Positions 8,608 through 13,583 of a stretch of DNA of 41,788 nt are shown here, in pieces. The translations under genes were made by a program, and so were the position numbers. Below the pieces are notes generated by a model that saw only the letters and a program-made list of their open reading frames with translations, had not been told where the DNA came from and ran no database searches. Every line of letters begins with the position of its first letter. Positions within the stretch are counted from its first letter, which is position 1. The stretch is from Bacteroidota bacterium (lineage in GTDB: Bacteria > Bacteroidota > Bacteroidia > Flavobacteriales_F > PHOS-HE28). Where the stretch lies: positions 1 to 41,788 of the forward strand of contig JAFDZG010000233.1 in assembly GCA_018267065.1 (NCBI GenBank), given 5' to 3'.

Positions 8608-8643
8608 ATGCAGAACGGCCGCTTTCGGGCGGCCGTTCTGCAT
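8608..8643. terminator. Strong bidirectional hairpin terminator
   Basis: A perfect 14-bp inverted repeat (8608-8621 ATGCAGAACGGCCG, 8630-8643 its complement) surrounds the 8-base loop CTTTCGGG. It lies between the plus-strand T9SS cargo gene and the convergent minus-strand small gene, so it can end transcription from both sides. There is no long T-run on either side. Confidence 0.75.
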
Positions 8644-8659
8644 TTCGCTCAAAGGGAGT

Positions 8660-8791
8660 TCAGCCTTTCTTCGCGGCCTTTTTGGCAACCCTTTTGCCCT
8701 GGGGGGACTTTGCCCCCGCTTCACGCCATTCGGCGAGCTTTTTGGTGGCTTTGCGTTTACGGATCTGTTGGGTCCTTTGGTCCTGTGGCAT
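8660..8791 (-). CDS. 43-residue highly basic small protein
   Basis: Unrecognised. The minus-strand frame from the ATG at 8791 encodes MPQDQRTQQIRKRKATK followed by KLAEWREAGAKSP, a QGKR turn and a Lys/Ala-rich tail ending KKAAKKG. Roughly a third of residues are Lys or Arg, with a short amphipathic helix in the middle. This resembles small nucleic-acid- or ribosome-binding proteins. Two signals outside the coding frame support a real gene: a -7-like TACTTTTC 20 bases upstream and the bidirectional hairpin just beyond its stop. An in-frame ATG at 8896 would give 78 residues, but it would put the promoter element inside the gene. Function is unknown. Confidence 0.55.
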   Translation of the reverse strand: MPQDQRTQQIRKRKATKKLAEWREAGAKSPQGKRVAKKAAKKG

Positions 8792-8810
8792 CTTGGTTTG
8801 TTTTCGCGGC

Positions 8811-8818
8811 GAAAAGTA
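8811..8818 (-). promoter_or_regulatory. Candidate -7 element of the small basic protein gene
   Basis: On the minus strand this reads TACTTTTC, one base from TAnnTTTG. It lies 19 bases before the ATG at 8791, a distance that gives a short leader. Confidence 0.45.
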
Positions 8819-8904
8819 GGCTGATCCCCCGTAGCCACCTAATCCTCCGGTTGGCCGCGCATACCGATCTCGCAAGTAATTGCGTTGATCGCTCAAAGAA
8901 ATTC

Positions 8905-10407
8905 ATGCGTCATTCCACGAAGCTGTTCATCCTGTGCGTATCCATGGCCGGGCTATACACCTTCCTTTTCCATGGAGTGGGAATCGGCATCAACCTGTTG
9001 CTCTTTGAGGCGGCCGTGGTGGCAACTTGGTTAAGCCTGCGCCGCGTACCTGCTTCCCGCTTGTCCATCCTTTCCGTTGGTGGCATGTTGTTGACGGCGG
9101 CAATGGTGGCCTTGCACGGTTCCACCATGACCATCGTGGCCAACCTGATCTCCGTCGGGTTCACAGTGGGGGTCTTGCTGGCTCCTGGCATGAACGCACT
9201 GCATCGGGCGGCCGTAGCCAGTCTGGTGCACTTGTGGGCAGTACCCATGGCCTTGGTCCGTTCCAGCCCGTTCCTGAGGGGAAGAACTACAGGCGGCGGT
9301 TCATGGGCCACCGGGCTGCTCAAGGCCTCCGTTGTGCCCTTGTTCCTGCTCGCATTTGCCGGGATGTACCGCATGTCCAATCCCTACTTCGACGGATTCA
9401 TGGACCATGTGCTGGCGATATTCAACCGTCTTGACACCGCACTGATCGGCAGCTTCCTCGTCGGCCTGTTGGCCAGCGGTTACCTGCTCCTGTCCACGCG
9501 CAGTGCGGCACTTTCCCGTTGGACAGCACCACGCAGCGATCTGCTCCAGGCCTGGCCGGAAGTTGCGGACGGGCAATTCATCCGCAGCGAGATCCGCATG
9601 GCCACGGTGCTCTTGGCAGGATTGAACCTGTTGCTGCTAGCCGCCAACGTGCTGGACATCCGGTACGTATGGCTGGACTTCAAGTTCAACGGGCAATACC
9701 TTAAGCAATTCGTCCACGAAGGCACGTACATGCTGTTGCTGTCAATCGTGCTCGGTGCGGCCATCGTGCTCTACTTCTTCCGCGGAGACCTGAATTTTCA
9801 CAAGGGGAACCGGATGCTCAAGTTGCTTTGTTATGCTTGGCTGGGCCAGAACATGGTGTTGGCACTTTCAGTGGGCATGCGCAACTACTGGTACATCCAT
9901 TACTACGCGTTGGCCTACAAACGCATCGGCGTGGTGTTCTTCCTGCTGGCATTGCTCATCAGCTTGGTACTGGTGCTTGTGAAAGTGAAGCGGGGCCGCT
10001 CAGTCCACTTCCTGATGCGAACAAGTACTGCCGCCGCGTACTGCATGGTCCTGTTGATGTCCCTTTTCAACTGGGACGGCCTCATCGCCAAATACAACAT
10101 GGCCCAGGCAGGCCGGGCGTTTGTTCACTTGGATTTCCTTGCCACACTTTCGGACAAGGCATTGCCCTACCTGGTGCAACCCCATGGAAAGTTGGAGTTG
10201 ATCGCGACGGGCAACGCGCGGCTGATCAGCGGTGCCGAGGGCTATAGTTGGACCAAGTACATGACACCCGAAGAATTTGGGGCGATCATTGAAAACCGCT
10301 CAGACCGTTTCCTGCATGCATGGCCCCGGCGGTCCTGGAAGGAATGGAACTGGGCTGAGGCCCGGGCTTTCCAGCGGTTGGGCTTCATGGGCGGAAAGGG
10401 CCAATAA
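8905..10407 (+). CDS. DUF4173-type polytopic membrane protein
   Basis: 500 residues from the ATG at 8905, where a hydrophobic helix begins at once (KLFILCVSMAGLYTFLF). Starts further upstream would read through the convergent small gene. About ten to twelve membrane helices are visible across residues 5-400. The C-terminal motif NWDGLIAKYNM, followed by HLDFLATLSDKALPYL, is characteristic of the DUF4173/DUF4153 family, whose members are inner-membrane proteins of unknown function. The soluble end (about 400-500) contains YSWTKYMTPEEF and several aromatic residues. It stands alone, with the next gene 94 bases away inside an inverted-repeat unit, so context gives no hint of function. Confidence 0.8.
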   Translation: MRHSTKLFILCVSMAGLYTFLFHGVGIGINLLLFEAAVVATWLSLRRVPASRLSILSVGGMLLTAAMVALHGSTMTIVANLISVGFTVGVLLAPGMNALHRAAVASLVHLWAVPMALVRSSPFLRGRTTGGGSWATGLLKASVVPLFLLAFAGMYRMSNPYFDGFMDHVLAIFNRLDTALIGSFLVGLLASGYLLLSTRSAALSRWTAPRSDLLQAWPEVADGQFIRSEIRMATVLLAGLNLLLLAANVLDIRYVWLDFKFNGQYLKQFVHEGTYMLLLSIVLGAAIVLYFFRGDLNFHKGNRMLKLLCYAWLGQNMVLALSVGMRNYWYIHYYALAYKRIGVVFFLLALLISLVLVLVKVKRGRSVHFLMRTSTAAAYCMVLLMSLFNWDGLIAKYNMAQAGRAFVHLDFLATLSDKALPYLVQPHGKLELIATGNARLISGAEGYSWTKYMTPEEFGAIIENRSDRFLHAWPRRSWKEWNWAEARAFQRLGFMGGKGQ

Positions 10408-10465: not shown

Positions 10466-10494
10466 CTTTGGGAATTCTAAAGTTATACTTTAGA
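10466..10494 (+). repeat. Left terminal inverted repeat / hairpin of the ATPase unit
   Basis: Bases 10466-10483 (CTTTGGGAATTCTAAAGT) are the exact inverse complement of 11711-11728. The inner part is itself palindromic: TCTAAAGT (10476-10483), spacer TAT, ACTTTAGA (10487-10494). It ends 7 bases before the ATPase start codon, so it may also act as operator or leader hairpin. Confidence 0.85.
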
Positions 10495-10501
10495 TTCCTC
10501 A

Positions 10502-11680
10502 ATGCGCTACACTCCACGCGACATTAGCCCGATCCTCTTGAAGGCGGCACGCTCCTTCCCCGCCGTGGTGCTTACCGGGCCGCGCCGCGCCGGCAAGACC
10601 ATGTTGCTGCGCAAGCTGTTCCCCAAGGCATCCTACACCTTGATGGAAGACCCGGACGTGATCGCCCGTGTGCGGGCGGACCCCCACGGCTTTCTGGACG
10701 GGTTGAAGCTCCCGGCAGTGCTGGATGAAGTGCAGAACGTGCCCGAGATCTTCTCCTACGTGCGCTCGCGGATCGACAAGAACCCGCGCCGCACGGGGCA
10801 GTGGTTCCTCTCCGGCTCGCAGGATGCCCCGCTGATGCAAGGGGTCACCGAAAGCATGGCGGGCCGTGCGGCCATGCTGCAATTGTACCCGCTGTCCATC
10901 ACCGAATCGCCCAAGGTGGACCTCTTCCTGGGCGGCTATCCCGAAGCGGTGGCGCGGCCATCGGGTGCTTCCCTGTGGTTCTCCTCCTACGTGCAAACCT
11001 ACCTGGAGCGCGACGTACGGGCGGTGACCAACGTGCGGGACCTGGCCTCCTACCGCCGCTTCATGGCCATGCTGGCCACGCGGCACGGGCAGCTGCTCAA
11101 CCGCACCGACCTTGCCGCGCCGTTGGGGGTAAGCGTACCCACGATCAACCAGTGGCTCAATGTGCTGGAGACCACCCAGCAGATCCTGCTGGTGCCGCCC
11201 TTCCACGGCCATTTGGGCAAACGCCTGGTGAAGTCCCCGAAGGTGTACTTCATGGACAGCGGGCTGGCCTGCCACCTGCTGGGGATCGCTTCGCGCGCGG
11301 AGCTCGCGCGGTCACCGTTCCTGGGTGCGCTCTTCGAGGGCTTCGTCGCCTCGGAAGTGGTAAAGCGCCAGGTGAACAAGGGCATGCGCCGCGAGCTGTA
11401 CCACTACCGGGATGAACACGGGCTGGAGGTGGACTTCATCGTTCCCGGCAAGGGCGGCGGCCTCCTGCTGTTGGAATGCAAGGCCACCCGCACGCCTGTC
11501 CCTTCCATGGCATCGCCCTTGATGCGCGTTCGCGATGTACTCTCTGAAAAAAAGCACGAAATCAAGCGACCGACGGACCTTGCGATCGTGTACCGGCCTG
11601 CAGCTCCAAAACCTTCTGTAAGCCTTGGTAAATCAGTAAAAGCTATGGACCTGGCCACGTGGTTGAACAAAGCCAAGTAG
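10502..11680 (+). CDS. AAA_14/DUF4143 ATPase with PD-(D/E)XK-like C-terminus
   Basis: 392 residues; the ATG at 10502 directly follows the left repeat. The AAA_14 domain has a P-loop GPRRAGKT (26-33), Walker B VLDEVQ (73-78) and sensor FLSGSQ near residue 100. A winged-helix-like segment follows (about 190-235, LAAPLGVSVPTINQWLNVLE), then DUF4143 with K-V-Y-F-M-D-S-G-L-A near 245. The end carries E309-x-D311 and E325-C-K327, the spacing of a PD-(D/E)XK nuclease-like core. Members of this family (COG1373) occur in many copies in anaerobes, Bacteroidota and archaea; their role is unsettled, with suggestions including toxin-antitoxin-like or nucleic-acid functions. The gene stands alone and is bounded by inverted repeats. 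Length is normal for the family, and no frameshift is seen. Confidence 0.9.
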   Translation: MRYTPRDISPILLKAARSFPAVVLTGPRRAGKTMLLRKLFPKASYTLMEDPDVIARVRADPHGFLDGLKLPAVLDEVQNVPEIFSYVRSRIDKNPRRTGQWFLSGSQDAPLMQGVTESMAGRAAMLQLYPLSITESPKVDLFLGGYPEAVARPSGASLWFSSYVQTYLERDVRAVTNVRDLASYRRFMAMLATRHGQLLNRTDLAAPLGVSVPTINQWLNVLETTQQILLVPPFHGHLGKRLVKSPKVYFMDSGLACHLLGIASRAELARSPFLGALFEGFVASEVVKRQVNKGMRRELYHYRDEHGLEVDFIVPGKGGGLLLLECKATRTPVPSMASPLMRVRDVLSEKKHEIKRPTDLAIVYRPAAPKPSVSLGKSVKAMDLATWLNKAK

Positions 11681-11701
11681 TCATGTTGGTTTCGGGGATT
11701 T

Positions 11702-11728
11702 TAAAGTTGCACTTTAGAATTCCCAAAG
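11702..11728 (+). repeat. Right terminal inverted repeat / hairpin of the ATPase unit
   Basis: Bases 11711-11728 (ACTTTAGAATTCCCAAAG) are the exact inverse complement of 10466-10483. With TAAAGT at 11702-11707 and spacer TGC they form the same hairpin architecture as the left end. It lies between the convergent ATPase and ettA genes and could double as a terminator. Confidence 0.85.
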
Positions 11729-11761: not shown

Positions 11762-13453
<1,692 letters not shown>

Positions 13454-13483
13454 GAGCAAACTTGTATTTCGTGGTTTCCCGGC

Positions 13484-13504
13484 ATCCGCCCCAGGCGGAT
13501 TTTT
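13484..13504. promoter_or_regulatory. Hairpin in the ettA leader
   Basis: ATCCGCC-CCA-GGCGGAT is a perfect 7-bp stem. On the plus strand it is followed by five T (13500-13504), like an intrinsic terminator against antisense transcription. On the minus strand it would lie at the 5' end of the ettA leader, just after the candidate -7 element. Confidence 0.5.
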
Positions 13505-13511
13505 CGGGCTG

Positions 13512-13519
13512 CAAAGGTC
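13512..13519 (-). promoter_or_regulatory. Candidate -7 element of ettA
   Basis: The minus strand reads GACCTTTG, identical to the element before the J/KTSC gene and one base from TAnnTTTG. It lies 58 bases before the ettA ATG. Confidence 0.45.
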
Positions 13520-13583
13520 CGTGATCTTTTTGGAATGCCGAATCACGGGTCTCGGGCAACGGGCTGGATCAGGCCGAACACCT

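Follow-up and report, generated by a model that had tools for sequence, protein, structure and literature searches.

In restriction-modification systems the C proteins control the nuclease by binding to their own operator, a palindrome placed over the promoter near or at the start of an often leaderless message. The unit studied here lies in a stretch of 41,788 nucleotides of Bacteroidota DNA (hereafter the window) and resembles these circuits in that a palindrome appears to overlap the promoter at the message start of a putative nuclease gene, but it has no methyltransferase, and regulator and nuclease would be a single polypeptide that also carries an AAA+ motor. With insertion sequences and MITEs it shares a short length, inverted ends and presence or absence at a locus; unlike them, it has no transposase family match and no target-site duplication, its 5' end doubles as a promoter, and most of its relatives are devoid of the 3' end. 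The nearest solved folds for the AAA+ and winged-helix part of its product are RuvB and the archaeal ATPase 2qen, from which it differs by the PD-(D/E)XK domain joined on. By protein family the gene is a PDC-S01, a phage-defence candidate of PADLOC in which an ATPase is joined to PD-(D/E)XK (PMC12988326). PDC-S01 is reported as the fourth most common prokaryotic defence system, with nearly 40,000 cases, lacks a mechanism and is a candidate awaiting validation (PMC12988326). The literature searched yielded no description of a palindromic promoter-operator or of flanking palindromes for PDC-S01, and no paper linking DUF4143 with palindromes.

The gene (10502-11680, plus strand; ATG at 10502, stop at 11680) encodes a protein of 392 amino acids and is the only one between the two palindromes of the window. 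As the original prediction had it, the product joins AAA_14 (residues 20-135, E 3.7e-21) to DUF4143 (residues 169-328, E 1.6e-46); Pfam gives these two alone, with no transposase or recombinase domain. The PADLOC model for PDC-S01, PDLC04790, covers most of the protein (E 1.5e-96), while NCBIfam gave no match and PHROGs nothing relevant. The AlphaFold2 model (mean pLDDT 94.4) contains an AAA+ domain (residues 1-135; 10502-10906, plus strand), with Walker A residues G26 and GK31-32 and Walker B residues D75-E76; a winged-helix-like part at about residues 181-250 (11042-11251, plus strand), assigned by inspection from its helix-helix-helix-strand-strand order and a candidate DNA reader of the palindrome; and an intact PD-(D/E)XK nuclease-like domain (11258-11593, plus strand) with E279, D311 and E325-x-K327, its fold order being taken from the model. 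Among 53 relatives G26, G31, K32, D75, E76 and E279 are invariant, and conservation reaches at least 90% at D311, E325 and K327, in agreement with the E-x-D...E-C-K core of PD-(D/E)XK type first recognized by its motifs. Structural matches of the model included the archaeal Walker ATPase (PDB 2qen), RuvB, Cdc6/Orc1 and, weakly, the Card1 nuclease. TM-scores were modest (0.27-0.44), and a sequence search found no solved relative. The architecture and the conserved Walker A/B and PD-(D/E)XK residues make the gene a member of COG1373/PDC-S01. The protein is predicted to be ATP-driven and probably cuts DNA; the nuclease activity is predicted from the conserved residues, and it is the PADLOC candidate label that suggests a role in defence.

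The sequence CTTTGGGAATTCTAAAGT at 10466-10483 is the exact reverse complement of 11711-11728, so that the perfect 18-bp inverted repeat initially described is accurate to the base, and it belongs to longer arms of 33 nt (10466-10498 and 11696-11728) that are 85% complementary. Each end is also a dyad in itself, as had been noted at the outset for the local hairpin, with the core TAAAGT-NNN-ACTTTA. The 5' palindrome (10466-10502, no strand), the proposed promoter-operator, reads TTGGGAATTCTAAAGT-TAT-ACTTTAGATTCCTCAA at 10468-10502 and abuts the start codon, the last base of the dyad being the A of the ATG. The 3' palindrome (11692-11728, no strand) reads TCGGGGATTTTAAAGT-TGC-ACTTTAGAATTCCCAA at 11692-11726 and is located 11 bp past the stop codon. 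Allowing up to three mismatches, CTTTGGGAATTCTAAAGT occurs in the 41.8-kb window at these two sites only, against 0.01 expected from dinucleotide shuffles, and allowing up to two mismatches the same two sites are the only ones in the whole 3.34-Mb assembly. Other kinds of repeat are common in the genus, which could suggest that the palindromes arose by chance or belong to some dispersed repeat that has nothing to do with the gene; yet there are only two copies in the genome, and in the 13 of 45 congeners that have the pattern it almost always accompanies the gene, be it intact or decayed. Copy number, congener distribution and the fixed position in orthologs refute this reading, whose probability we regard as practically nil.

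Both palindromes of the window contain promoter-like sequences. A scan over 1.4 kb returned two sigma70-like matches against 0.1 expected, both inside the palindromes and both on the minus strand: TTGAGG-N17-TAGAAT in the 5' palindrome (10474-10502), directed away from the gene, and TTGGGA-N17-TAAAAT in the 3' palindrome (11698-11726), directed into the gene and hence antisense. On the plus strand the 5' palindrome of the window carries TTGGGA-N17-TAGATT (8/12), which from its sequence is weaker than the promoter of the relatives. All four congeners checked have a promoter of the Bacteroidota type, CTTG-N20-TACTTTAG, across the dyad and ending 11 nt before the ATG.

The upstream site is conserved far beyond the genus. 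Of 42 orthologs in the subfamily of the window, which come from eight or more phyla, 39 have the 35-bp site, at 35-38 bp before the ATG in 38/42, and this site contains a promoter, TTGASA-N17-TAKAAT, in which the -35 box matches in at least 4/6 positions in 39/39 sites and the -10 box in at least 4/6 positions in 37/39, the spacer being invariably 17. The ortholog sites were found as the best consensus match within 122 nt, so that their match scores are biased upward, but this bias leaves the tight clustering at one distance unexplained; the three orthologs without the site score 14-18 of 32. From the position of the -10 box the transcript would start at or just before the ATG. Over the whole family, and searching from -120 to +30 at a threshold of p<0.01, a dyad was detected at 95/154 COG1373 genes (62%) versus 25/250 neighbouring genes (10%), and a dyad score of at least 12 was reached by 44% versus 5%; about a third of the sampled COG1373 genes have no clear dyad at p<0.01. 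The right edge of the palindrome precedes the start codon by a median of 3 bp (116 family members). The sequence of the palindrome differs between subfamilies, each having its own. The dyad thus lies over the core promoter and keeps a set distance to the start codon, an arrangement that would be expected of an autoregulated promoter-operator, and the upstream palindrome is most likely the gene's own on/off switch. A palindrome over the promoter is also found on a plasmid of Moraxella bovis (L236, 2926-2970), where a COG1373 gene adjoins a recombinase gene. This palindrome is perfect, with 21-bp arms, and takes in the -10 box of the gene's promoter, a good sigma70 one (TTGACT-N17-TAAGAT). The alphaproteobacterial relatives carry direct repeats, TTTAAATNRGACGG, in place of the palindrome, and these could likewise serve as operator.

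Since both palindromes of the window form hairpins at the two ends of the gene, they might instead work in the RNA, as a translation-blocking leader and a transcription terminator. The mismatches in the dyads, however, are G-T in 39 cases and A-C in 35, without the wobble bias expected of an RNA hairpin, and from this we infer that selection on the palindrome acts at the level of duplex DNA. Moreover, the stems are A/T-rich and a scan found no terminator there, both copies have the same sequence, and the -10 box lies inside the 5' stem. The hairpin or terminator reading was thus rejected on the mismatch test and the terminator scan, and we consider it very improbable. The two halves of the dyad co-vary, with 36 double changes versus 24.0 after shuffling (0/500 shuffles as high) and far fewer when the halves are slid, although these counts are inflated by shared ancestry.

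The 3' palindrome has a much narrower distribution. A matching downstream copy accompanies 18/116 COG1373 genes with a 5' dyad, versus 2/115 for a control stretch, and most of these 18 copies are no more than 18 bp away from the stop codon; 84% of the palindrome-bearing genes have none, so that inverted repeats at both ends are not a trait of the family throughout. In the subfamily of the window the 3' copy is limited to this genus and to Acidobacteriota. A palindrome found only upstream, as a conserved operator, had been named as the observation that would speak against mobility; this is what the family at large displays, but not this clade, in which 7/7 intact members have both copies. The 5' and 3' copies within one gene stay alike, and several unrelated subfamilies have a second copy at the stop codon, which the promoter-operator reading leaves unexplained. 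A second COG1373 subfamily of the genus, with the palindrome core TTCGCCACG-N-CGTGGCGAA, keeps both ends while its gene stays at one locus in six species (L168, L169, L170, L171, L172 and L033; in the window's own genome, C249). The 3' copy is thus kept by selection in several lineages.

The mobility proposed for the unit could be followed within the genus. The neighbours annotated around the gene by Pfam are DUF4153, ABC-F and PKD/CHU_C genes, and no integrase gene stands beside the window copy. The stop of the DUF4153 gene (8608-10407, plus strand) forms the left side of the empty site and that of the ABC-F ATPase gene (11762-13546, minus strand) its right side. In the search for empty sites that had been suggested, G002 and G018 proved to have these two genes side by side, 19-28 bp apart, with neither a COG1373 gene nor a palindrome between them. 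G004 (92% protein identity) has the unit at the site of the window, G032 (84%) next to that ABC-F gene but with no DUF4153 gene to its left, and G020 a decayed remnant at the site of the window. The orthologs of G010/G062 and of G024/G027 occupy other loci, and this dyad flanks each of them at both ends; the expectation that the ends travel with the gene holds for these four genomes, though most of the family has the upstream copy only. In the tree the genus forms one clade (support 99) that is nested among Verrucomicrobiota, Nitrospirota, Myxococcota and Pseudomonadota sequences and separate from the remaining Bacteroidota homologs sampled, and this placement, together with the differing loci, indicates that the gene probably entered the genus from outside Bacteroidota and then changed place. 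The absence in G002 and G018, the other loci and the plasmid moves described below refute a gene held always at the same place: the unit is gained, moved and lost as one gene. Hence the gene moves alone between genomes while the upstream palindrome keeps its position across many phyla.

Such behaviour could be that of a minimal self-moving element, whose protein would recognize the two palindromes as ends and whose AAA+ and nuclease parts would excise and insert the unit in the manner of a one-gene transposon. Presence or absence at one locus with both palindromes included (G002, G018) and the units at other congener loci with both palindromes fit this idea, as do the decayed copies and gene-less palindromes that remain and the compact palindrome-gene-palindrome arrangement produced where the 3' copy touches the stop codon, as it often does. 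Copies 78-92% alike at different loci have in common little beyond palindrome and gene, but at about 80% identity neutral flanks are lost anyway, so that the pairs at 88-92% weigh most. Against it stand the predominance of genes without a 3' copy, the promoter held by the 5' copy at a fixed distance from the start codon, the subfamily that keeps both sites with an immobile gene in six species, and the lack of a target-site duplication or a base-exact empty site. Inspection by eye of locus A and of the other junctions displayed gave no target-site duplication, and no base-exact empty site was found at locus A, locus C, G060, G058 or the plasmids, the flanks within the genus being too diverged or rearranged; the absence of the gene is clear at the empty loci examined. 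Palindromes standing alone in G058 and G018 were considered as clean excision scars and ruled out, as they are decayed copies in which the 3' end of the gene survives. In G065 (L218, 1501-1716) a pair of such palindromes, separated by 181 bp and enclosing no gene, stands upstream of a CaiB/CoA-transferase-like gene, and a single one (L212, 1501-1535) upstream of the same gene in G060; other congeners have none there.

Plasmids provided the strain-level cases of movement. In Sinorhizobium meliloti a 1.38-kb insert with the COG1373 gene only has split traH near its end; the plasmids of R. etli and A. pusense have no insert at this site, and about 217 bp of the target are missing at the insert. 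In Agrobacterium pAt plasmids a 95-99% identical unit occupies four loci, always with GTTCGATTCCCATCAAGGCGA or a close variant as left border. This border is a tRNA-T-arm-like sequence unrelated to the palindrome, also present in element-free plasmids and apparently an attachment site, and the Agrobacterium subfamily has the upstream direct repeats TTTAAATNRGACGG and no palindrome. The Agrobacterium gene thus looks like cargo of site-specific recombination and not like a self-mover. GTTCGATTCCCATCAAGGCGA was noted in Agrobacterium and Rhizobium plasmids at L301 (about 1748-1768), L302, L304, L309, L305, L310 and L308, and Agrobacterium sp. 13-2099-1-2 (L307, 801-870) has the first 70 bp of the Agrobacterium unit alone, without the gene. 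Since the palindrome in most of the family is upstream only, tied to the start codon and promoter-bearing, and with the Agrobacterium border and no target-site duplication besides, the part of the original prediction that saw the palindromic termini as mobile ends found no support, whereas the mobility of the one-gene unit did. A self-moving element of the kind outlined above is unlikely, and self-mobility through the palindromes is equally doubtful.

The unit may alternatively be passive cargo, spread by integrases, conjugative plasmids and illegitimate recombination, with palindromes that are regulatory only and a 3' copy that acts as second operator or roadblock. The common left border at the four pAt loci, the replacement of target sequence in the Sinorhizobium plasmid and the stable residence of the sister subfamily support this account, while against it units of one gene (1.26-1.6 kb) recur with hardly any additional flank, which hints at some defined unit, and the window copy lacks an adjoining integrase gene. 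We give this account slightly less than an even chance. In any case, a promoter-operator accounts better for the palindromes than the ends of a transposon would.

The explanation we favour, and hold to be fairly probable, is a portable single-gene self-regulated nuclease module in which promoter and operator are one palindrome. The 35-bp palindrome would be the core promoter and at the same time the operator for the gene's own product, a dimer of which, bound through its winged helix, would limit expression by covering the -35, the -10 and the point at which a leaderless or nearly leaderless mRNA begins. Once the protein is drawn off, as it might be by foreign or broken DNA, the gene would be derepressed, and its AAA+/nuclease product would build up and act on DNA. 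The same protein would also bind to the 3' palindrome, which might thereby dampen transcription, antisense or outward, from its own promoter, and the module would spread by horizontal transfer, being gained, moved and lost as one gene. Binding by the own product, autorepression and the role of the 3' site are predictions from sequence, and the regulator acting at the palindrome could be another protein. A hint that fits release by foreign DNA comes from Thermus thermophilus HB27, in which TT_P0211 (AAA_14, DUF4143, HTH) is 6.6-fold up with plasmid, and only in the presence of Argonaute (PMC4406477).

A subfamily-specific palindrome on the own promoter, as a rule, gives a first handle on how COG1373/PDC-S01 genes switch on. 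It predicts a DNA target for the protein and provides a signature in the sequence by which start codons can be placed and units delimited. The clades with two palindromes, the window included, raise the question of a second operator versus an element end. That COG1373/PDC-S01 is a one-gene mobile element, its palindrome being promoter, operator and element end together and its protein excising and inserting the palindrome-gene-palindrome unit in two-palindrome clades, seems improbable; if it were true, one of the commonest 'defence systems' would be, or would have begun as, a selfish element.

Two other repeats of the genus were observed. One is a MITE-like element of about 165 bp, dispersed with up to eight matches per genome and bounded by perfect inverted ends (AGAGCCTGTTTGGGATCTC and GAGATCCCAAACAGGCTCT), which is present in G027 (L071, 7252-7416) and absent at the same site in G024 (L072, 7110-7115), with copies in L183-L189. 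The other, at about 7859-7920 of L070 (G010), is also dispersed but short, about 35-60 bp, and genomes throughout the genus have several matches to it.
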